A model generated the notes under the pieces. That model did not search any database. It was not told the DNA's origin and saw nothing but the letters and a program-made list of their open reading frames with translations. A DNA stretch of 25,781 nt, from contig MGQK01000111.1 of the NCBI GenBank assembly GCA_001797815.1, positions 5,051 through 30,831 on the forward strand. Reading direction: 5' to 3'. The translations under genes were made by a program, and so were the position numbers. Numbering within the stretch: position 1 is the stretch's first letter; every line of letters begins with the position of its first letter. Below are positions 4,347 through 25,781 of this stretch, in pieces. Source of the DNA: Deltaproteobacteria bacterium RBG_13_61_14. Lineage in GTDB: Bacteria > RBG-13-61-14.

Positions 4347-5441
4347 TTACCGTCCCGCCGCCGGCGCCTGTTTCTCCTTGACGCCGGCCCGGGCCTGCCG
4401 CTCAAACTCTTCCTTGTCCTCGGCATAGGCGAGGCCGGTCTGGAAGGAAATCTTTTTCGACCGGAAAAGCTGGAGCAGGCAATCATCCAACAGCATCGTG
4501 CCCTTGGAGCGGCCCATCTGCATCATCGAGCGGATCTGGAAGGTCTTGCCTTCCCGGATCAGGCTGGTAATCGGGACCGTGCCCACCAGGATCTCGTAGG
4601 CGGCCACCCGGCCCTTGCCGTCCAGGGTGGGGATCAGTTGCTGGGAAATAACTCCCACCAGCGATTCCGCCACCATCACCCGGATCTGCAGCCGCTGGTC
4701 GCCCGGGAACACGTCAATGATCCGGTCCACCGTATGTTGCGCGTTGATGGTGTGCAGGGTCCCGATCACCAGGTGGCCGGTCTCCGAAGCGGTGAGCGCC
4801 ATGGAGATGGTCTCCAGGTCCCGCATCTCTCCCACTAAAATGATGTCCGGGTCCTGGCGCAAGGCCGCCCGCAAGGCGATGGAGAAGGAGCGGGTGTTGT
4901 AGCCCACCTCCCGCTGGTTGACCAGGCAGGTTTTATCCTTGTGCTCAAACTCAATGGGATCTTCCACGGTGATGATGTGCTCGTGGCGCCGCTCGTTGAT
5001 CAGATCCAGCAGGGCCGCCTGGGTGGTGGTCTTGCCGCAGCCGGCCGGGCCCGTGACCAGGACCAGGCCGCGGCGAAAAGCGCCAAATTGCTCCACCACC
5101 ACCGGAAAGCCCAGCTCGGTCAGGCTGGGAATCCGGCTCGGGATATACCGGAACACCGCGTCCATGCCCCGGAAATGGACATAGGCATTCCCCCGAAACC
5201 GACCCACCTCGGGAATCTGGTAGGCGAAGTCCACGTCCCGCCGTTCTTTGAAAGTCTTGCGCTGGCGCTCGTCCAGGATCTCTCCCACCATCCGGTGCAG
5301 GTCTTTGGGCGGGAGCGGCGCGCCCTCGACGACTTTGAGCTCGCCGTTCACCCGCAAGAGAGGAGGTGAGCCTGAGGCCAGGTGGAGGTCCGAGGCGCCG
5401 GCCTCCACCATTTTTATCAGATATTGGTCAATGTCAGCCAT
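4347..5441 (-). CDS. PilT/PilU-like type IV pilus ATPase (first copy of tandem)
   Basis: This 364-aa paralogue of the following gene has the same order of motifs: GASDLHLASG (about 15-24), Walker A GPAGCGKTT (131-139), VEDPIEFEHK, the Walker B region DPDIILVGEM and the His-box region GTLHTINA. The Walker A loop has Ala-Gly-Cys where the second copy has Thr-Gly-Ser. The C-terminal motif reads ITSLIREG, a looser fit to AIRNLIRE. The ATG at 5441 is chosen so that the protein starts MADIDQYLIK, in register with the paralogue's MARIDSFLKH; an in-frame GTG at 5468 would add nine residues. It is probably an accessory or PilU-like retraction ATPase working with the other copy. The C-terminus ends in a Lys/Ala/Pro-rich tail. 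Confidence 0.9.
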   Translation of the reverse strand: MADIDQYLIKMVEAGASDLHLASGSPPLLRVNGELKVVEGAPLPPKDLHRMVGEILDERQRKTFKERRDVDFAYQIPEVGRFRGNAYVHFRGMDAVFRYIPSRIPSLTELGFPVVVEQFGAFRRGLVLVTGPAGCGKTTTQAALLDLINERRHEHIITVEDPIEFEHKDKTCLVNQREVGYNTRSFSIALRAALRQDPDIILVGEMRDLETISMALTASETGHLVIGTLHTINAQHTVDRIIDVFPGDQRLQIRVMVAESLVGVISQQLIPTLDGKGRVAAYEILVGTVPITSLIREGKTFQIRSMMQMGRSKGTMLLDDCLLQLFRSKKISFQTGLAYAEDKEEFERQARAGVKEKQAPAAGR

Positions 5442-5520
5442 TCGGGAAGATCGGAACCCATCTCTCACTGCCCATCATAGCCCTAAAGTTTTCCGCGCGC
5501 AAGCCCGCCGGATTGACCCA

Positions 5521-5652
5521 AATCTCCGGCTAAGAAATTATCCGCTTGATTTATGGGCGGTTGCCGGCAGCATCCAGGTGCCTCAGGCAGAGCCGTGATT
5601 GTGGCCTGGTAGGGGCACGGCATGCCGTGCCCCTACTTCTTAGCCGGAGATT
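5521..5652. repeat. Inverted-repeat element with 16-bp perfect ends
   Basis: AATCTCCGGCTAAGAA at 5521-5536 recurs as its exact reverse complement at 5637-5652. Between them sits the perfect palindrome at 5609-5636. The layout (outer inverted repeat around an inner GTAGGGGC palindrome) matches the two other small elements at 2454-2605 and 14493-14630. No coding capacity and no clear target duplication are visible. Confidence 0.55.
5609..5636. repeat. 28-bp perfect GTAGGGGC palindrome
   Basis: The sequence begins GTAGGGGCACGGCA and is perfectly self-complementary over 28 bp, ending GCCCCTAC. It is an interspersed palindrome rather than a terminator, as it lacks a T-run and lies more than 170 bp from the neighbouring genes. 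Confidence 0.75.
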
Positions 5653-5868
5653 GAGGATTGACTTTAGGGCCGCGGCTAATTTTGACTTTCGGGGCGCGGC
5701 TGACCGTTCGGCTGTCTTCGACCCTGAGGCTCATACCCGAAGGGAGCTCACGGCCGAAAGCCTCAGCCGCGCACTCCGCCGCGCACTATGCACTGTCCAC
5801 TGTTCACTGTGCACTTTTTCTTATGAACATTTGACAGCCGAACCTCCCTTGGATAACATCGAACCACC
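5653..5868. other. Intergenic region upstream of the hydrolase-bioB pair
   Basis: No gene is supported here. It contains a run of related 9-10-mers at 5783-5815 (GCACTATGCACTGTCC followed by CACTGTTCACTGTGCACT). A reverse-complement relative of this lies at 9521-9552. A promoter for the hydrolase-bioB pair presumably lies here, but no clear -35/-10 pair was recognised. Confidence 0.5.
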
Positions 5869-6912
5869 ATGACCACACTCGCATTCCTGGTTCTGGTCCT
5901 GATCCTCTATCTCTATCTCCTCGGCCGACTGTTTCCGCTCCCGGTCCCGGCCGATGAAATCCACTTTGCCGAAAACAACGCCGGCTTCCGCCTCGCCCTC
6001 TACCGCTACCGCCCGCCCAACCTCACGCCCGGCCGCGAGCCGCTCATCCTCTGCCACGGCCTCGCCTCCAACCGCCACTTCCTCGACTTCAACGACCGCT
6101 ACAGCCTGGCCCGCTACCTTCGCCACCTGGGCTTTGACTGCTTCGTGGTCGAGCTCCGCGGCCGCGGGCTTTCCCTGCCCAGGCACGGCCGGCGGCTCTC
6201 CTGGGATTGGTGCTTCGACGATTACGTCCGGGACGATCTGCCTGCGATCATCGCTACGGTCAAGCAGTTGACCCAAAGCCCCAAGGTGCTCTGGCTCGGC
6301 CACAGCATGGGCGGCATGGTCATGTATGCTTACCTCGGCACCCAGGAGCAGGAGAGCATCCGGGCCTTTGTCGCCATGGGCTCGCCCGGCGCCTTTTCTT
6401 CCCGATACCTCCCGGCCTGGGCCCGGGGCTTAAGCCGGGCCGTGCTTCAGACATTTTCCTGGACTCCGCTTCGGCTGCTCGCCCGCTTGGCCGCGCCCCT
6501 GGCTTACCTGCTCCCGGTGGAAGCTTACGGCCTGCCCAAAGAGGTAGTGGCCGGCTACCTCTGCCACGGCCTGGCCAATACCTGCAACCGCGTGCTCCTG
6601 CAATTCCTCGATTGGATCGAAAATGAAACCTTCCGCTCCGACGACTATTCCATTGACTACCTCGCGCGCCTCCGCGACGTGACCACTCCCTTCCTCGCCG
6701 TGGTCGGCGCCAAGGACTGGATGGCCACGCCCCGCATGTGCCGCGCCGCCTTCGCGGCCTTCGCTTCGCCCGACAAGCAGCTCCTGATGTTGGGCCGCAA
6801 ATACGGCCAAGCCCAGGAATACGACCACATGGCCATGGTGCTCGGGCTGCGCGCGCCCGAAGAAGTCTTCCCCCAAGTCCGCGACTGGCTCCAGAACCAC
6901 GCTTCGGCTTGA
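5869..6912 (+). CDS. Membrane-anchored alpha/beta hydrolase
   Basis: The 347-aa protein starts with a hydrophobic segment (about residues 4-23, rich in Leu, Val and Tyr), predicting an N-terminal membrane anchor or uncleaved signal. The alpha/beta-hydrolase core follows: an oxyanion-hole region LCHGLASN (61-68), the nucleophile elbow GHSMGG with Ser146, an acid candidate Asp283 (VVGAKDWM) and the candidate His320 (YDHMAM). All triad residues are present, so a lipase, esterase or acyltransferase activity is expected. Its stop codon lies 2 bp before the bioB start, which suggests co-translation. BioH-like removal of a pimeloyl-ester cap is a context-based possibility, but this protein is about 90 aa longer than typical BioH and membrane-anchored, so the substrate is open. 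Confidence 0.85.
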   Translation: MTTLAFLVLVLILYLYLLGRLFPLPVPADEIHFAENNAGFRLALYRYRPPNLTPGREPLILCHGLASNRHFLDFNDRYSLARYLRHLGFDCFVVELRGRGLSLPRHGRRLSWDWCFDDYVRDDLPAIIATVKQLTQSPKVLWLGHSMGGMVMYAYLGTQEQESIRAFVAMGSPGAFSSRYLPAWARGLSRAVLQTFSWTPLRLLARLAAPLAYLLPVEAYGLPKEVVAGYLCHGLANTCNRVLLQFLDWIENETFRSDDYSIDYLARLRDVTTPFLAVVGAKDWMATPRMCRAAFAAFASPDKQLLMLGRKYGQAQEYDHMAMVLGLRAPEEVFPQVRDWLQNHASA

Positions 6913-6914
6913 CC

Positions 6915-7898
6915 ATGTCTCTCGATCCGCTTTCCCGACTTATTGCCGCTGCCCAAGACGGCCGGCCGCTCGCCCCGACCGAAGCCCTGCTTGTCGCCGA
7001 CCTCGACTTTGGCCAGTTCCTGCGCCTGCTCCCGGTCACTCAGGCGCTGCGCGAAAAACGTTTCGGCAACTCGGTGCGGCTCTGCTCGATCGTCAATGCC
7101 AAGTCCGGCCGCTGCGCGGAGGACTGCCGCTTCTGCGCCCAGTCCGCGGCCTGGCCCACCGGGGTGGACGAGTATCCGCTCAAGACGCCGGAAGAAATCT
7201 TGGCAGAAGCCAGGCAGGTGAAGCCCTGGGGCGCGCGGGAATTTTCCATTGTCACCTCGGGCAAAGGACTCAAGAAAGAAGCCGAGATCGAGGCGGTGTG
7301 CCGGGCCATCCTCGCCATCCGGGACGAGACCAGGCTTTTGACCTGCGCGTCGCTGGGGATTGTGGACGAGCGGATCTTGGCCCGGCTCAAGGCCGCGGGC
7401 CTGAACAAGTTTCACCACAACCTCGAATGCGCGAAGAGCTACTGGGACCGGGTCTGCACCACCCATCCCTGGGAGGAAGACGTGGCGGTGGTGAAGCGGG
7501 CTAAAGCGCTGGGCCTGGAGGTCTGCTGCGGCGGCATCTTCGGCCTGGGCGAGAGCTGGGCAGAGCGCGCCGAACTGGCCGAGACCCTGCGCGACCTGCA
7601 AGTCAACTCGGTGCCGCTCAACTTCCTGAACCCCATCCCCGGCACCCCCCTGGAAAATGTTCCTCGGCTTACCCCCCTCGAATGCCTCAAAATCATCGCC
7701 CTCTTCCGCCTCATGCTCCCCCAGACCCGCCTCCAAATCTGCGGCGGCCGGCACATGAACCTGCGCGACTTCCAGTCCTGGATCTTCGCCGCCGGCGCCG
7801 ACGGGATGATGATCGGCAACTACCTCACTACCAAAGGGAGGCCGGTGGAAGAGGATTTGAAAATGATTGCCGATTTAGGGTTGGAGTCCGAGCCGTAG
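6915..7898 (+). CDS. bioB: Biotin synthase (radical SAM), atypical auxiliary-cluster ligands
   Basis: The 327-aa product matches BioB, which inserts sulfur into dethiobiotin in the last step of biotin synthesis. The radical SAM motif is [13 protein letters not shown], with Cys67, Cys71 and Cys74. Further family blocks are [46 protein letters not shown] and the GGRHMNLRD segment carrying the conserved Arg. Of the residues that bind the [2Fe-2S] sulfur donor in E. coli, the Cys128 equivalent (LLTCASLG, Cys144), the Cys188 equivalent (VCCGG) and the Arg are present. The Cys97 position appears to be Ser111 ([10 protein letters not shown]). The ATG at 6915 is fixed by the N-terminal length and the 2-bp spacing to the hydrolase gene. 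No other bio genes are in the window. Confidence 0.92.
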
Positions 7899-8033: not shown

Positions 8034-8113
8034 CTCTTAAAAAATGTATGGTGTTCCCCGAATTCCTAGTATTGACCTGGCCCCATTTCTTCAATTCTTC
8101 TTTATATATTACC

Positions 8114-8500
8114 TTATTTTGCTTTCGCATGTGCAAGCACTGAAGATAATACTTTTTTCACATTTTCAGACTGCAATATCACCTTTAAACCATGAAACAG
8201 TTCTTTCTCATCACCTACTCCATATTTCTTTTGATTCACCATATCATGTAATTCGAGAGGATATATAGTAATATCATAATCTATTTGTAGAATTCTTATT
8301 GAATATCCCGCAAGAGCAGATGAAAATATCTCTAAAGCATATGAAAATGCTCTTGATGGGACAATGCTTTTCGTAACTTTTGCCTCTATTAAATTCCCTG
8401 TCATTTTCCCAAGAAATGAAGCTTGTTGTTTCAAGATGTTTTGCGGCAAAACCAATGATTGTGCATCCGGTAATTCTCCCCACAGATTTTCTTGGCTCAT
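8114..8500 (-). CDS. Small protein of unknown function, coupled to EEP nuclease gene
   Basis: I do not recognise this 128-aa protein with confidence. It has no signal peptide or membrane segment and is predicted to be cytoplasmic. The N-terminal third (ILKQQASFLGKMTGNLIEAK, about 22-41) looks helical, the middle (YSIRILQIDYDITIYPLEL) looks like beta strands, and the C-terminus (KELFHGLKVILQSENVKKVL) is a predicted amphipathic helix. Its ATG overlaps the stop of the upstream EEP gene by one base (TAATG), and a strong ribosome binding site GGAGGAG precedes it inside that gene, so the two are translationally coupled. Codon use is AT-rich, like the nuclease gene and unlike the flanking genes, which indicates joint acquisition. 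A partner, inhibitor or immunity role is an inference from this arrangement only. Confidence 0.75.
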   Translation of the reverse strand: MSQENLWGELPDAQSLVLPQNILKQQASFLGKMTGNLIEAKVTKSIVPSRAFSYALEIFSSALAGYSIRILQIDYDITIYPLELHDMVNQKKYGVGDEKELFHGLKVILQSENVKKVLSSVLAHAKAK

Positions 8501-9324
8501 TATTCTCCTCCTGAAATAAGATTAAGGTTAAATATTATGGGTAAATGATCTGATGCATTTATCTTATCTGGCAATCCCGCAGGGCTTAAAAGTTTAATAT
8601 CACCTGCCTTTGTTAATATTTGAAGATCAGAATCAACAAAATATTTAATCAATTGTGGTCTTATTAAAACTTGATCAAAAATATTCCAATAATAATTAAC
8701 TGGATTAGAAGAATTATAATAATATGTTCCTTTAGCACCTTCCGGATAATCGCCAAAATGTCTCCACATAGGATTATAAAAAAAATAGTAATCTTTTCCT
8801 GAAACTTTTCTAGATTCCTTAAGAGCAATGGACCTATCCATGATTGCATGCAAACCATTTGATACAATAATACCTTGTTCAAATGGATTCATATTAAAAT
8901 CACCTACAACAACTGTCCTTTTATGGCCAATTTTAGTTTCATATTCTTCTATTATGCTAGCTAATTCTTGACAATAAAATGGTTGGTCTTCGGTTTTTAA
9001 ATATAGCTTGCTTTTTAAATGAACCACTACAATCAAAATATCAGGAACTATAATTGGATTCAATTGAAAAACTGATATGCCTGATGTATCAAAATGCATA
9101 GTAAAAAATTCATCACCAAGTCTAGATATAATGATTGGATCTTCAAATGGCCTTGAAATATATCTATAAATACCGGATTCACCAGGGTTCAAAGCTTGTA
9201 GTAGCTTCGGAAGATCAAAATCCATTTCTGAGAATAGCATTACATCGATATCATGTTGATTAGCAATTTGATAAATTAAATTATACAAGGATTTTTTATT
9301 GAGATTCCAGTATAAAAATTTCAT
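8500..9324 (-). CDS. Endonuclease/exonuclease/phosphatase (EEP) family protein
   Basis: The 274-aa protein shows the metal-dependent EEP (DNase I/ExoIII/IMPase-like) order of motifs. These are WNLN with Asn7, SEMD with the metal-ligand Glu33, VVHLKSK with His102, VVGDFNMNP with Asp142 and Asn144, NIFDQVLI with Asp217, and the terminal NASDHLPI with Asp259-His260. All expected catalytic positions are present, so phosphodiester or phosphomonoester hydrolysis is likely; the substrate (DNA, RNA, lipid or small molecule) cannot be told. The region from about 178 to 212 (DYYFFYNPMW, YYYNSSNPVN) is unusually Tyr/Asn-rich and may be a specificity insert. No signal peptide is seen. The gene is strongly AT-rich against its surroundings, has a near-consensus promoter at 9433-9461, and is coupled to the small downstream gene. 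Confidence 0.88.
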   Translation of the reverse strand: MKFLYWNLNKKSLYNLIYQIANQHDIDVMLFSEMDFDLPKLLQALNPGESGIYRYISRPFEDPIIISRLGDEFFTMHFDTSGISVFQLNPIIVPDILIVVVHLKSKLYLKTEDQPFYCQELASIIEEYETKIGHKRTVVVGDFNMNPFEQGIIVSNGLHAIMDRSIALKESRKVSGKDYYFFYNPMWRHFGDYPEGAKGTYYYNSSNPVNYYWNIFDQVLIRPQLIKYFVDSDLQILTKAGDIKLLSPAGLPDKINASDHLPIIFNLNLISGGE

Positions 9325-9432
9325 TGATAGCCTTTCAGTTCGAAGGACACCATAATTAATTCCCCTGATTATATTCTTGTATTGAGCCTTTTTTCAGATC
9401 CTCGGCTTTTTGAATATCCTAATCTTTAGCAA

Positions 9433-17198: not shown

Positions 17199-17274
17199 GG
17201 GCGATTAGCTCAGTGGATAGAGCACCGGCCTCCGGAGCCGGGTGTCGCTGGTTCGAATCCAGTATCGCCCTCCA
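17199..17274 (+). tRNA. tRNA-Arg (anticodon CCG)
   Basis: The gene starts GGGCGATTAGCTCAGTGG and its acceptor stem closes with ATCGCCC, followed by T and an encoded CCA. The anticodon stem CCGGC/GCCGG encloses CTCCGGA, giving anticodon CCG. The T arm is CTGGTTCGAATCCAG. Its 3' part is used as integration site by the element to the right and is also read, on the minus strand, as the end of the integrase gene. Confidence 0.96.
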
Positions 17275-18445
17275 AAATTCCCCTTACGGGATAGCCGCTT
17301 ACAGCAAACGCCGTTTTCGGTAGCACGCTGGTAGCACAAAATTCCCCTGATTCAACCGCCTCGCGGGCGATTTCTCCCACCTTCGCCGCCGCGTCAACCA
17401 GCCGCTCCCGCCGCGCTTTAACATAGCGATTCAGGGTAAGGGTCGGGGTTGAATGGCGCATGAGGGTTTGAGCCGTCTTTATGTCCGCCCCTTCCTCGAT
17501 CAAGAGCGTGGCAAACGTGGAGCGAAGCGAGTGAAGCGTAGCCGATCCTTCCCCCACTACGAAACGGGGAATGCCGGCCGCCTTTAAGTCCTTGTAAAAT
17601 GTCTCGGTCGGATTGCCGGGGAATCCGGCCAGCAGGGGCGCATCCGGGTCGCTCCCCTGAGTTGCGGCCAGAAGCCAATCCAGGAGCCAGGGCGAAAGCG
17701 GTTGCAAGCCGGATTTCTTGTTTTTCGTGATCTCCGCCCGAAGGTTCAAGGCTTGCATGTCCAGGTTCAAGTCGGAAACCTTCAGGGTCTTCAACTCCGA
17801 GCGGCGAAGGCCCGTGGCAACGGCCAGGGTGTAGATCAATTGCCGTTCCTCTGGCACGGCGGCCAGGAGCTTTGCCAACTCCTCGCGGGTCAAGGCCCGA
17901 TAAATCCGGGTAGGCGTGGTATCAAACCGGGTCAATCCCTTGGTTGGGTCGTGATCCAGGAAACCCCGCCGCTCCGCCCATCGGCAAAAGCTCTTAATGC
18001 TCTCCACCCTGTCCATGATGCTCTTGCCGGATAAACCCCGCCCCTGTAACTCGCGGAGAGCCGCTTCCGCCCTCGGAAGGATACCGGGCAGGTCGCCCAA
18101 GCTTGCGAGGCCCAGGTGTTCCGCCCACCATTCAAGGTTTTTCTGCTTTTGCCGGGCGTGCATCTTGGCCCATCCCCGACCCCCGCGCCCGCCGCAACTC
18201 AAACCCCAAGAGACGTATTCCCCCACCGCTTCGGAGTAGAGCCGGGCCGCGTGCTTGCTCGCGCTCTTGGGCGGCTCGCGGTATCCGAGCCGGACCTGCT
18301 TGTGTTCATCTTCCAGCTTGCGCGCCATTGCCAGGGTTTCGCGCCGGTCATGGGTTCCGGTGAAAAACTGCCGCTTGCCCGCCGCGTCCACAAACCAGGC
18401 TTGAAACTTGCCGCCAGGGTTCGGCCTTTTCCTCGCTCCGGCCAT
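17210..18445 (-). CDS. int: Tyrosine recombinase / integrase of tRNA-Arg element
   Basis: The 411-aa protein has an N-terminal arm and SAM-like DNA-binding part (about 1-175) and a C-terminal tyrosine recombinase domain. The catalytic residues are visible: Arg214 (ATGLRRSEL), a Lys candidate at KNKKSG, His305 and Arg308 (LHSLRSTFA), His331 (MRHSTPTL) and the nucleophile Tyr341 (LNRYVKA). The last roughly 20 residues (about 391-411: LEGDTGFEPATPGSGG and onward) are encoded by the antisense strand of the tRNA-Arg gene, with the stop inside it. The true conserved domain ends well before that. The start ATG at 18445 lies 2 bp after the stop of a small ribbon-helix-helix gene, forming an operon that can control integrase level. 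Confidence 0.93.
   Translation of the reverse strand: MAGARKRPNPGGKFQAWFVDAAGKRQFFTGTHDRRETLAMARKLEDEHKQVRLGYREPPKSASKHAARLYSEAVGEYVSWGLSCGGRGGRGWAKMHARQKQKNLEWWAEHLGLASLGDLPGILPRAEAALRELQGRGLSGKSIMDRVESIKSFCRWAERRGFLDHDPTKGLTRFDTTPTRIYRALTREELAKLLAAVPEERQLIYTLAVATGLRRSELKTLKVSDLNLDMQALNLRAEITKNKKSGLQPLSPWLLDWLLAATQGSDPDAPLLAGFPGNPTETFYKDLKAAGIPRFVVGEGSATLHSLRSTFATLLIEEGADIKTAQTLMRHSTPTLTLNRYVKARRERLVDAAAKVGEIAREAVESGEFCATSVLPKTAFAVSGYPVRGILEGDTGFEPATPGSGGRCSIH
17245..17274. other. Left attachment site (attL) within the tRNA-Arg 3' end
   Basis: The integrase gene directly abuts and overlaps the 3' half of an intact tRNA, the usual arrangement when the element carries a copy of the tRNA 3' end. 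The crossover is expected in the T arm/acceptor part. No second copy of TTCGAATCCAG or TATCGCCCTCCA was found to the right, so attR is either outside the window or lost; the exact core is not defined. Confidence 0.45.
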
Positions 18446-19132: not shown

Positions 19133-20353
19133 TTATCCGCCCCTAATATCACCCTCTGGCTTTATGCCGGCATAATCACCCATCAGCATGTCCCGGAGAG
19201 GCCGAAATGCACTCTTCGCCTCCGGCTTCAACCGCCATCTTCCCTTTTTAAAATATTCGATGAAGCCAAGCTTTTTCAATTTCTGAAGTTCCCGGGTATA
19301 TCGGGAGCCTTGGTTATGCACGAAACCGTTTATAACCAACTGTTGAATTAGCTCTTTCATCCGTTTTGCGGTGCTGGGGTGGCAACGGCAAAGGAATATA
19401 TCCAGGATTGAGGGAATTTCACAAACCGAAGAAGCCCATTGTTGGATTTGGGTGATATGGCGATAATATTTTGGAGCAAGCACCTTGAACTGATTTTCCA
19501 CTGCCGAAGGGTTGGTCAGATCAAGATTAGGATCGAGAAATTGCTTCAGCCTCCGACCTTCAATTGTAGCCTCAAACCGGATCACATCAACGGCTTTCGT
19601 GTAAATCTTATAAATCTCACCTTCAACAGGATGAGCTTTGAGAAAAGAGTGATTATTCGCTAAATAGCCATCCCCTTTTCTGCGCCCCTTCCTCCCCATC
19701 TTCAGCGACTGTTGTTCTTCTGCAAAGTCGCAGAAGTGCCTGAAAAAACTATCTTTAAACCCATCAATAAGGGGAATGACCGTTGGCTTCTCAACGTCCC
19801 AGGCCAGTTCGAGATAAAAGAGATTCGAGCGGATGGATTCAATGGGAATTTCTTTTTCGGTGATCGCCAGAATATCGTTACGAAATGTCTCTTGTTCTGT
19901 CTTTACAATACTGGCCAATTCCTCCAAACCAAGGCGGAGGAGTTGAGAGCAAAGACTTGGTTGGATCAGGCTACGGCGGATGAAGTTATCGTTTCCTGCA
20001 GCAGGGCAGCTCCGATCATCATAATCGTATTCACTAGTAAGAAGCTGGCGGAGATAACGATTGAGATTGATTTCGACCACATAATAGTATTCACCTTGGC
20101 TGCAAATTTGATAACTGGTGCAGCGTTTGACCGTGTAATTACTTTCATTACGAGTCTTAGCCGAAAAGCAACGCGGTTTGCGGCGTTTCATACAGTCGGG
20201 AAGCTCATCAGAGTGTGAACTCACAATGGTAGATATTCGAACTCTAAGTAAATCAGGCAACAAGTGGAATACAGCTTCTTCTGGAAAAACCTGAGAACCA
20301 CTCATCCCAACTTCAGTCTTCCTATCACTTGTCAAATTTGTCAACATTTTCAT
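19133..20353 (-). CDS. Candidate replication initiator (phage gene II/X-like), weak match
   Basis: I recognise only part of this 406-aa protein. The segment GEIYKIYTKAVDVIRFEATI followed by EGRRLKQFL resembles the YxK...LRFEvxlxxRxLK stretch of filamentous-phage/plasmid gene II/X replication proteins. Upstream lie YYYVVEINLNRYL and FYLELAWDVEKPTVIPLI, which look like strands of such a fold. The C-terminus (LQKLKKLGFIEYFKKGRWRL) has a winged-helix look. A clear HUH motif was not found, so the call is tentative; a transposase-like or regulatory protein is the alternative. The ATG at 20353 has a strong GGAGGTG site 7 bp upstream. Two 36-bp direct repeats lie 64-136 bp upstream, as iterons or an operator would. 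It is more AT-rich than the integrase genes. Confidence 0.45.
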   Translation of the reverse strand: MKMLTNLTSDRKTEVGMSGSQVFPEEAVFHLLPDLLRVRISTIVSSHSDELPDCMKRRKPRCFSAKTRNESNYTVKRCTSYQICSQGEYYYVVEINLNRYLRQLLTSEYDYDDRSCPAAGNDNFIRRSLIQPSLCSQLLRLGLEELASIVKTEQETFRNDILAITEKEIPIESIRSNLFYLELAWDVEKPTVIPLIDGFKDSFFRHFCDFAEEQQSLKMGRKGRRKGDGYLANNHSFLKAHPVEGEIYKIYTKAVDVIRFEATIEGRRLKQFLDPNLDLTNPSAVENQFKVLAPKYYRHITQIQQWASSVCEIPSILDIFLCRCHPSTAKRMKELIQQLVINGFVHNQGSRYTRELQKLKKLGFIEYFKKGRWRLKPEAKSAFRPLRDMLMGDYAGIKPEGDIRGG

Positions 20354-20416: not shown

Positions 20417-20489
20417 TAACCATAAAACCGCATCGGGTTAAACAACCTAGGCATAACCATAAAGCCGCATCGGGTAAATCAGCCTAGGC
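20417..20489. repeat. Two 36-bp direct repeats, each ending in CCTAGGC
   Basis: Copies at 20417-20452 and 20454-20489 share TAACCATAAA(A/G)CCGCATC, then GGGT and CCTAGGC, with few mismatches and a 37-bp period. The second ends in the perfect palindrome AGCCTAGGCT (20481-20490). Right after it lies ATCAG-ATGAA-CTGAT, a short inverted repeat near 20494-20508. They sit upstream of the Rep-like gene and downstream of the HTH gene, a place fitting iterons or an operator. Confidence 0.7.
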
Positions 20490-22469: not shown

Positions 22470-23267
22470 CTAAACTTTATACGCACCATACCCAATCACT
22501 GCCAGCGTCAGCACCACCATGGCCAGTGCCAGGTCCGAGGTCCCATAAGAGTTGCTCTCTAGGGCAATTTCTAAGCGCTGCAACTCCTCACCGTTGTCGT
22601 CAACAATCGAAATACTCCCCTGCCCCACGCAATATTGCGGCAGCGGCTCTCGGATCGGCAAATACCAGCTCCGCGCGCTCCGCTCGCTCGCTCCCCACAC
22701 CTCCTTGATCCCAACTACCCACAGCTCCTGGGTGTCTCCGCTCAAACATCCTAGCCGCCACCAGGCCTCGCTCCGGCCATCGGCTTCATTGGCGATCCAG
22801 ACGTCAAGGGTGGCTCCGTCCTGGGGGGATTGCCAGGGATAACCCGCCACGGTCCCTTCCCCCCGATAGACAGCATAGCGCACCGCGAAGTTCGCCGCAA
22901 TCGTGGAGCCGCCTTGCGGGTTGACCCGCTCCAGGGGCAGGAGTTCGCCGGGAATAATCTCGTCCTGATTATGGCGGTAGTAGAGGTAGGCCACAAAGGG
23001 ATCGGAAATCACTTGGCCGGCATCCGCGCCCCAGCTCGGATAGTAGCTCAAGAGTTGGGGTCGAATATCGAATTGGGCGGGCGCAATATCCATCACTTCA
23101 TCCGAGATCGAGGTGGAGACGGTTTCGCTCTCTCCGAGAGCGCTGATGGTCAGTGACTGGGAGAAGGGGCCGAGGTCATCCGAACCGGCCCCATCCGGCC
23201 TGGTTCCATAAAACCATTCGGCCTTGGCCAAGCCCAGGCTCTCCAAGCGAACCGCAACTATGGATGA
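22470..23267 (-). pseudogene. 5'-truncated 3' fragment of an envelope protein with C-terminal membrane segment
   Basis: The frame opens directly after the TAG of the upstream lipoprotein gene, with no ATG or ribosome binding site. The first in-frame start, a TTG at 23246, has none either, so the 5' part seems lost. The fragment (about 265 codons) contains NEADGRSEAWWRLGC, QELWVVGIKEVWGASERS and GSISIVDDNGEEL, clearly related to the same modules of the large protein at 23968-25781. It ends in a single membrane segment DLALAMVVLTLAVIGYGAYK, an anchor. Composition is much more GC-rich than the lipoprotein gene that abuts it, so a recombination junction lies near 23262. It may be expressed only by readthrough, or not at all. 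Confidence 0.65.
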
Positions 23268-23942
23268 CTATTGACAATCTTGGATAAGTTTTATAATTGG
23301 TCCACAGACTTCTTCTTTGCGCTTCGAAGCATCTACTGGGAACTTAAAATCCTTAGAAGGGGTTTCGGCCCACTCGCTATAACTAATATGAATATCAAGA
23401 TTGGCAAATAGTATTTTAGAATCAAAGGAAGGACTATTCTCGCGTTTTTCAGTGCTCCAGCTATAATCTCCCAACTTATTCTCCTTATCTGGCTTATATA
23501 ACGAAGGTTGAGGAATATGTGTAAAAGCATAAAAAGAAAATCTTCTGGCTTGTTCATAATTTTGATAAATAGTAATATCGATTTGAGTGCCAGAATCTAT
23601 GTGATCGCTGATTTTTGTTCTATAGCCAGCATAGAATGAATGCGCGCCTGTATCAAAATAGCGACGAGTCAAAGTTCCGGAGATTCCAGGAAGATCCGGC
23701 ATATTAATTTCGAGGCATTTTATTAACTTCTGTGGCGTATTTATTGGATGCTTTGTTTCTTTTGGAATATCATCTGGGGCATATTTGAAAGGATCCCCAA
23801 ATCTATTTTTGAAATCAGCATATTCCTTTTCTTTTATTTGATAATACTCATCAGTTGGAAGAGTTTGAATTTGCGAAACCTTTTCATCGCATGAATAGCT
23901 TGAAGCTATCAGAATTAAAAGAATAACTTTCAATGTGTTCAT
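23268..23942 (-). CDS. Small lipoprotein of unknown function, candidate immunity protein
   Basis: The 224-aa product starts MNTLKVILLILIASSYSC, a lipoprotein signal with Cys18 as likely acylated residue, so it should be attached to a membrane in the envelope. The mature part is hydrophilic and beta-rich (DIHISYSEWAETP, SGTQIDITIYQNYEQARRF) with only a few cysteines; I recognise no family. It starts 25 bp after the large envelope-protein gene, with a strong AAAGGAG site, so the two are co-transcribed. It is as AT-rich as the 3' end of that gene and ends exactly against a GC-rich gene fragment. Position, size and envelope location fit an immunity protein for the upstream C-terminal domain; this is an inference, since no homology is visible. 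Confidence 0.8.
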   Translation of the reverse strand: MNTLKVILLILIASSYSCDEKVSQIQTLPTDEYYQIKEKEYADFKNRFGDPFKYAPDDIPKETKHPINTPQKLIKCLEINMPDLPGISGTLTRRYFDTGAHSFYAGYRTKISDHIDSGTQIDITIYQNYEQARRFSFYAFTHIPQPSLYKPDKENKLGDYSWSTEKRENSPSFDSKILFANLDIHISYSEWAETPSKDFKFPVDASKRKEEVCGPIIKLIQDCQ

Positions 23943-23967
23943 TTTCGTCTCCTTTCGTGGCTAAAAA

Positions 23968-25781
23968 TTATGGAGCATTGCTGTTGGTGATCGTCAGCAC
24001 GGTATTACCAGCCAAGGTTGAGGTCTCGAAAGTATCGGATTTATATGATGAATGCCATAAACCCCGTGGGCAAAAATAGTCATCACCACTTCCTCTCACC
24101 TGAATGCTGGCCGAGTCATAGACCGGGTTCATCGGCAAATCAAGTAAGGGATACATATGAAACTGCCATGAAGCCGCATCGTATAGATTTGGGAAAGATG
24201 GATAATCTGCTTCATATCCAGAATCACAATAAATCAAATCCCAGGGATTAATATAATGTTCCCAAAACGATTTAGTCGCGGCAAGCAAAGGATAAGTTTG
24301 GATAAGGGGACCGAGATTAGGTACCCAATTTGGATGATACAAGGCATATGAGTTCATAGGAATCCCGAGAGAAGTAATAAGATTGACATTAAGGTTTGAA
24401 AAAGCCTGACAATCCAATCGCGATGTTTTTTGGGCCGGATCTGAAAGTTCTTTTAATAGCCTAGTCAAATAAAAAGTAAGATTATCAGCTCTCGGTGACC
24501 AGGATGTATAGGGAACTTGACCTCCATAATATTCCAAATTCGCTTTCCACGGAAACGACCGATAGGCCATTGCAAATTGCGAATTATTCCAACATGATCT
24601 GGCAACACAGGCAGAAACAAAATTAGCAATATAGGCTGGATCTCCTAGCATTGGCATATCCCAATATCTAGTCTGCCACCAGACCGCCATTTTCGCTCCG
24701 GCCTCCACTACCTCGGCAACGGGGCCGGCATCATTGGGCGGCTGAGGAACATCGTAAATAACAGAAATACTATGCGGGCCGGTAAACTTCGGGAATAAGG
24801 CGGCCATAGCATACGGACCTAAACCCTCCGGGTTAATCCGGAAACCGAGGCCATCCTCAAACGCCAGTATCTTGTCCGCAGGGAACGTCGCCGTCGTCGA
24901 AAAATAGGCTTCTGCCTCTCCCCCGGAAAAACTGACCGGGATTTCCTCGAAGTAAGGGAAACAGCTTTCCCGGCTATAGACATTGCATTTTTGCGATTGC
25001 ACCCACATCGGGATAGTTCCAGAAAAATCATTCGGATTTGCAAAAAGGTGAGCCTTGATGACCGGACTCACTCCCCGAAGATAGGCCACCGGATAATTAA
25101 CGCCCGCGCCCGGCGACCATTCCGGCGCTTGAATCACCGCTAAATTGCGATCCTTGACCGTGATCGCGTCATCTGAATCGTCCGAGTCATTCCAGTTAAA
25201 ACTGACCGCTCCCACCGTAATTCCTAAGCCAATGGCCAGTCCAAAACTTCCTCCACCCTTTGCCGTGGCCACCACTATTCCACCTTGCTGACCATCAATC
25301 GTCAAGGCATCCAAAACCCAAGGACTGTCGCTGAGACCATAGATCACCTCAATTTTTCCAGAACGATGGTAGGACGAACTATAATTGCCATAGACCAGAT
25401 TCACGGTCAGCGAGTCCAATACATTCCCCTCCGCGTCATAGCTCAAAAGCTGGCCTTCGATGTTTGAGGTCACCGGCCTCGGCGGAATCTGCAACCGATT
25501 AATCGGGGTCTCCATCTTCACGTAAAAGTAATGCTGCTCCGCCTCCGTGCTCTCCGGCAAATATTCCAACTCCTGGCCGTTCTCGTCAATCAAAGTGATA
25601 CTTCCTTTGCTCACGCAATACGGGATCAGCGCGTCCAACCCGGTCTGAATCTCCCAGTACCATGCCCGGTAGCTTGGCTGGCTCGCGCCCCAGACCTCTT
25701 TCATCCCCACCACCCACAACTCCTGGCTCCCAACATTGCACCCCAACCGCCACCACGCCTCGGTCCTCGCATCCGTCTCGT
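23968..25781 (-). CDS. Large envelope protein with transglutaminase-like C-terminal domain, 5' end outside window
   Basis: The frame is open to the window edge (ETDARTEAWWRLGCNVG continues upstream of any start), so the N-terminus is missing; about 604 codons are visible. Numbering from the TTG at 25746: a module QELWVVGMKEVWGASQ...GSITLIDENGQEL (8-60) is shared with the fragment at 22470. A Gly-rich hydrophobic stretch (about 163-183) is followed by an Asp-rich NDSDDSDD. A beta-rich region runs to about 350. The last 230 residues suggest a transglutaminase/papain-like fold: SRLDCQAFSNL with Cys446 before a helix and LGIP, SWQFHMYPL with His530, and NPVYDSASI with Asp544, a Cys-His-Asp triad in the right order. 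This end is AT-rich against the rest. Cell-surface processing, crosslinking or toxin activity are possible. Confidence 0.75.
   Translation of the reverse strand, partial: ETDARTEAWWRLGCNVGSQELWVVGMKEVWGASQPSYRAWYWEIQTGLDALIPYCVSKGSITLIDENGQELEYLPESTEAEQHYFYVKMETPINRLQIPPRPVTSNIEGQLLSYDAEGNVLDSLTVNLVYGNYSSSYHRSGKIEVIYGLSDSPWVLDALTIDGQQGGIVVATAKGGGSFGLAIGLGITVGAVSFNWNDSDDSDDAITVKDRNLAVIQAPEWSPGAGVNYPVAYLRGVSPVIKAHLFANPNDFSGTIPMWVQSQKCNVYSRESCFPYFEEIPVSFSGGEAEAYFSTTATFPADKILAFEDGLGFRINPEGLGPYAMAALFPKFTGPHSISVIYDVPQPPNDAGPVAEVVEAGAKMAVWWQTRYWDMPMLGDPAYIANFVSACVARSCWNNSQFAMAYRSFPWKANLEYYGGQVPYTSWSPRADNLTFYLTRLLKELSDPAQKTSRLDCQAFSNLNVNLITSLGIPMNSYALYHPNWVPNLGPLIQTYPLLAATKSFWEHYINPWDLIYCDSGYEADYPSFPNLYDAASWQFHMYPLLDLPMNPVYDSASIQVRGSGDDYFCPRGLWHSSYKSDTFETSTLAGNTVLTITNSNAP

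Follow-up and report, generated by a model that had tools for sequence, protein, structure and literature searches.

A candidate toxin-immunity cassette with mosaic lipoprotein genes in Deltaproteobacteria bacterium RBG_13_61_14

The immunity genes esaG and tipC, which belong to Gram-positive loci with toxins secreted by the type VII secretion system (T7SS), carry blocks of homology at their 5' and 3' ends around variable middles and include mosaic members; TipC is equipped with a lipoprotein signal, and in the tsaI-tspA locus the entire gap between tsaI10 and tsaI11 is taken up by a 3' fragment of tspA (PMC9484751). The type VI secretion system (T6SS) immunity arrays of Vibrio cholerae hold orphan immunity genes together with effector 3' ends that were displaced by module exchange (PMC5361080). 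A lipoprotein also takes part in the SitA/SitI polymorphic toxin system of Myxococcus xanthus, where the toxin itself is reported to be the lipoprotein (PMC5562445). Here we describe a locus with related features from the draft genome of Deltaproteobacteria bacterium RBG_13_61_14 (GCA_001797815.1; 4.74 Mb in 132 contigs). It lies at the right end of the window, by which we mean the whole stretch of 25,781 nucleotides that was analysed (positions 5051-30831 of the 30831-base contig C111, MGQK01000111.1), and consists of the gene for a large carrier protein with an AT-rich C-terminal domain, of lipA, which encodes a probable lipoprotein, and of a GC-rich gene fragment. We suggest that the first two are probably a toxin-immunity cassette.

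The locus resembles the T7SS loci in having paralogous mosaic genes for presumed immunity proteins, a 3' fragment of the presumed toxin between two of them and, as in TipC, a probable lipoprotein signal; the likeness is one of pattern alone, as no sequence relation to these Gram-positive systems was found. With the V. cholerae arrays it shares what look like orphan immunity genes and effector 3' ends, but the genome contains no VipA and no VgrG-type carrier was recognised. A large carrier, an exchangeable-looking C-terminal domain, a small downstream gene and orphan pieces recall Rhs, CdiA and MafB; however, the sequence-only reading that first drew attention to this DNA had already noted that these families are not visible, and neither a signature of them nor any other Pfam or NCBIfam match is present in the 603 visible residues of the carrier, the N-terminus of which lies beyond the contig end. 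Finally, whereas in SitA/SitI the toxin is the lipoprotein, at this locus it is the presumed antidote.

The sequence-only reading had described a large minus-strand protein that enters the window from the right, a lipoprotein gene 25 bases after it and a start-less fragment directly behind the lipoprotein stop that ends in a membrane anchor, and each of these elements was recovered, the last one as a terminal hydrophobic segment (Table 1). Window and contig end at the same base on the right, such that the N-terminus of the carrier is missing from the assembly itself, and no overlap of this end with the other fetched contigs was found. The 25 bases between the carrier stop and the lipA start place lipA where the immunity gene of a polymorphic toxin is expected, a correspondence of position only. 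The lipA product has a predicted signal peptide and Cys18 in an atypical lipobox (SSYSC, followed by D). With respect to base composition, the C-terminal part of the carrier is indeed AT-rich compared with the body (overall GC 0.43 versus 0.54), but the sharp switch that had been placed at 24690-24730 dissolves into steps: GC content at third codon positions (GC3) is 0.86 over residues 1-50, about 0.5 over residues 126-375, about 0.3 over residues 376-550 and about 0.5 over the last 50 residues. Overall GC is 0.35 in lipA and 0.60 in the fragment, with GC3 values of 0.28 and 0.70, respectively. Relatives were sought in collections of genome contigs, viral contigs, plasmids and phages and in the whole phylum (three genomes); no relative was found in these collections or in the two other genomes of the phylum.

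A second locus in the same genome adds further evidence. In a genome-wide search the last 97 residues of the carrier recur on contig C99 with 84% protein identity, and there the piece lies between two paralogues of lipA: the order (in C99:60000-72000, piece L004) is lipB at 5402-6076, the remnant of the toxin tip at about 6078-6348 and lipC at 6373-7047. The remnant begins a few bases past the lipB stop and lacks the equivalent of Cys457. No carrier gene is present at this locus, which thus has the makeup of an orphan cassette of a polymorphic toxin, and its neighbours on either side are genes that resemble those for a glycoside hydrolase and an amidohydrolase (both named from sequence alone). 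Between the carrier and the remnant, the nonsynonymous rate (dN) is 0.08 and the synonymous rate (dS) 0.55, giving a dN/dS of about 0.15.

The lipA product is 69% and 67% identical to those of the two C99 genes, and this identity is unevenly distributed. In a permutation analysis of 237 polymorphic columns (5000 shuffles), lipA matches lipB over nucleotides 7-189 and lipC over nucleotides 586-675 (p<0.0002 each). Past the 5' block the identity of lipA to lipB ranges from 0.53 to 0.88 in 20-codon steps, while in the comparison with lipC the last 90 bases are near-identical and the part upstream of them is divergent. The three lip genes are recombination mosaics in which like ends surround divergent middles. 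Over the full length of the genes the three pairwise comparisons give dN/dS values (Nei-Gojobori) of 0.35, 0.40 and 0.49; selection on the lip genes is relaxed, not positive. We counted the contrast between a conserved toxin tip and the less conserved lip genes in favor of a toxin and its immunity proteins.

Because a toxin remnant lies between lip paralogues on C99, because the lip genes are mosaics and because the same pattern is found in published immunity families, we favor a toxin-immunity cassette, in which the carrier would bear a C-terminal toxin and the downstream lipoprotein would confer immunity, and we regard this as probable. The sequence-only reading had arrived at the same pairing; the carrier-free locus and the lip mosaics now support it independently, whereas two further parts of that reading, a displaced 3' end and transglutaminase chemistry, come out weaker. 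In the model we suggest, (i) the C-terminal domain of the carrier would be the effector part of an interbacterial toxin, either contact-type or secreted, (ii) the carrier would present or deliver this domain outside the cell, and (iii) the lipA product would be exported, stay in the envelope of the producer and block toxin arriving through the periplasm. If the presumed immunity protein is located in the envelope, the toxin would act in the periplasm or enter by way of it. The C99 locus would be an orphan immunity array, with two more alleles and a 3' scrap of a lost toxin, that may protect against the variant toxins of neighbours. Homologous recombination may swap the 5' and 3' blocks among the lip genes, and their diverging middles may give rise to new specificities. 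If this model is right, then carrier, toxin domain and immunity family are all undescribed, in a phylum represented by three genomes, and the mosaicism of T7SS immunity genes recurs where no relation to those loci exists, the orphan array being placed at a distance from the toxin gene.

Several observations weigh against a toxin-immunity cassette. Neither a toxin domain nor a family of immunity or carrier proteins was recognised, and no relative with the same body and another C-terminus was found in the collections searched. The T6SS marker VipA is absent, as mentioned above, the lipobox of the lipA product is not a typical one, and the dN/dS values of the lip genes stay below 1 and do not show positive selection. 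Mosaic paralogues, moreover, occur in other gene families too.

As to what the C-terminal domain does, it could be a transglutaminase-like cysteine enzyme with a Cys-His-Asp triad that cross-links, deamidates or cleaves envelope proteins, and this we consider possible, although we lean against it. The residues that the sequence-only reading had singled out, Cys446, His530 and Asp544, do exist; they are numbered from the TTG at 25746 and correspond to C457, H541 and D555 in the 603-codon frame. The segment around the cysteine, DCQAFSNLNVNLITSLGIP, is similar to the helix that bears the nucleophile in transglutaminase-like proteins of this genome and phylum, and the histidine and the aspartate are 14 residues apart, near the spacing in genuine members and in a similar context. 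Scored with a model derived from transglutaminases of the phylum itself, this segment reaches 4.4 bits; however, 3 of 3000 shuffles equal that score. A genome-wide search with PF01841 finds genuine members elsewhere but not the C-terminal domain (E<=10), Pfam, NCBIfam and PDB sequences likewise give no match, and profile comparison returns a probability of 7.7% over 18 columns. Two AlphaFold models, of 250 and 179 residues and computed with no other sequence than that of the window, have predicted local distance difference test (pLDDT) values of 34 and 36 and offer no usable fold. The proposed chemistry thus comes down to one short motif of marginal resemblance. A literature search combining transglutaminase, immunity protein and three further terms found no paper.

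The fragment at 22470 had been read as the 3' end of the original carrier gene, pushed downstream by the insertion of lipA together with a new C-terminal domain. Its sole possible start is a TTG at 23246 (258-residue open reading frame). The claim that it repeats a module of the carrier holds: fragment residues 161-241 (154-232 of the 258-residue frame) align with carrier residues 1-84 at 58% identity (E 1e-23), and the score of 238 compares with at most 55 in 500 shuffles, with 68% identity at the DNA level. This module, which we call module X, is not adjacent to the supposed exchange point, however; it forms the first ~80 residues of the visible carrier, about 270 residues ahead of the C-terminal domain. 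The native composition of the fragment, its beginning right at the lipA stop with no proper start and the carrier as its single match in the whole genome would fit a displaced end. Such a displacement, if recent, is expected to leave a near-identical overlap, and the identity observed between the two module X copies is far below this; in addition, the visible carrier has nothing that corresponds to the first 150 or so residues of the fragment, no second region of homology to the carrier body was found (p 0.16), and a truncated tandem paralogue accounts for the data equally well. We therefore consider displacement somewhat unlikely. The fragment has rather the appearance of an old tandem paralogue without its 5' part, which fits at least as well and agrees better with the module X identity than a fresh displacement does. 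A single weak plasmid match to the fragment (E 0.3) was taken as chance.

Lastly, that the carrier is an ordinary surface enzyme or adhesin, with the lipoprotein as its partner, chaperone, substrate or anchor and the copies as duplications of an accessory pair, we judge unlikely: it agrees with the lack of matches to known toxin or immunity families, with purifying selection on the toxin tip and with the location of the partner genes of such enzymes, likewise directly downstream, but two partner genes around an inactive-looking scrap on C99 are hard to explain for a partner and normal for immunity, and the divergence of the lip genes is concentrated mid-gene with recombination at both ends.

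The presumed toxin-immunity cassette is probably part of an integrative element that has tRNA-Arg as its insertion site. A gene for a tyrosine integrase lies at this tRNA gene in the window (Table 1), and contig C92 has an exact second copy of the last 25 bases of the tRNA on its forward strand, at 20339; no tRNA gene was found there. Two features by which tRNA-borne elements are recognised are thus present, the integrase beside the tRNA gene and the directly repeated tRNA 3' end; a far attachment site was also sought within the window and none was found. Just before the repeat, C92 (L131 7345-19382) encodes homologues of HmaA, HmaB and HmaC, i.e. an Hma-type defence system, and a DUF3644-type protein. 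The simplest reading is that of a single integrative element, presumed to begin on the left with tRNA-Arg and the integrase gene, on which the toxin locus would lie close to this left end and the Hma defence system at the right one; in that case C111 and C92 would be linked. Between the integrase and the toxin locus, two 36-base direct repeats (window 20417-20489; 37 bases from start to start, 89% alike) separate an open reading frame with an HTH_17 domain (excisionase-like) from the open reading frame at 19133-20353; they are possibly iterons or a regulator site.

Table 1. Features of the window (positions counted from its first base).
Feature	Position	Strand	Basis or remark
Carrier protein, C-terminal 603 residues	23968..25779	-	Open frame from contig end to TAA
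Module X of carrier	25540..25779	-	Second copy in downstream fragment
Remaining carrier body	24721..25539	-	GC3 about 0.5-0.7; matches no known domain
AT-rich C-terminal domain, candidate toxin domain	23968..24720	-	GC 0.43, GC3 0.38; 3' part recurs on C99
3' piece of C-terminal domain with second, remnant copy on C99	23968..24237	-	88% DNA identity over 233 bases
Cys457 (Cys446 when counted from TTG at 25746), proposed nucleophile	24409..24411	-	Sequence; absent from C99 remnant
His541 (His530 from TTG), proposed catalytic	24157..24159	-	Sequence; kept in C99 remnant
Asp555 (Asp544 from TTG), proposed catalytic	24115..24117	-	Sequence; kept in C99 remnant
lipA, 224-residue secreted, probable lipoprotein, candidate immunity protein	23268..23942	-	Signal peptide, Cys18; two C99 paralogues
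lipA 5' block	23754..23942	-	Differs from lipB at 1 of 189 bases
lipA 3' block	23268..23357	-	Near-identical to lipC
Start-less GC-rich fragment	22470..23267	-	Second module X copy, terminal hydrophobic segment; 265 codons open from lipA stop
Tyrosine integrase	17210..18445	-	PF00589, E 1.6e-21; 3' end overlaps tRNA-Arg(ccg) 17199-17274
Presumed attachment site, tRNA-Arg 3' end	17250..17274	+	25 bases exact on C92

Apart from these elements, the genome contains a dispersed repeat (consensus GAATTAAGTATGGTGTCCCCCGAATT), the 19-base core of which has 64 copies at <=2 mismatches and zero in the reversed control. A gene for a Y1-type transposase (PF01797, E 3.7e-12) lies between copies of the repeat on contig C46 (L059 513-1172) and is a candidate for a transposase of the kind associated with repetitive extragenic palindromes (REPs). 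The C99 array is bounded by a 30-base inverted repeat free of mismatches, and it is in this sequence that the 19-base core lies. Of the 37 AT-rich islets in 1.06 Mb of fetched contigs, 16 show a copy no farther than 250 bases from an edge (1.7 expected) and 6 have copies at both edges (0.2 expected; p about 0.001 from circular shifts), numbers to be read with the caveat that the islet contigs were mostly picked for holding copies and that the shifts control for the density of copies per contig and not for a general intergenic preference of the repeats. If the innermost copy at each edge is considered, 20 of 22 copies point one and the same end towards the islet by our own count, an inward orientation. 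Islets with repeat edges include the C99 array (L004 5348-7108) and islets in L056, L060, L061, L062 and L067; islet contents comprise a SIR2-domain protein, GmrSD_N, FRG proteins, unknown proteins and the lip array.

If the cassette model holds, the orphan array ties immunity genes to repeat-edged islets with defence-like genes and in this way provides a testable idea of how such genes might travel within a genome. In its full form, the idea would be that the repeats, related to REPs and Y1 transposases, are the ends of small AT-rich cassettes that spread immunity, SIR2, GmrSD, FRG and unknown genes, with the pair in the window as one supplier; we regard this as speculative and rather improbable. 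The toxin locus in the window has no copy of the repeat at its edges. Elsewhere in the window an AT-rich islet (8039-9362, C111:13089-14412; GC about 0.31) encodes an Exo_endo_phos protein at 8500-9324 and contains a 128-residue open reading frame; its edges are marked by a repeat copy with 2 mismatches at 9344 and by a weak one, inverted and with 5 mismatches, at 8039.

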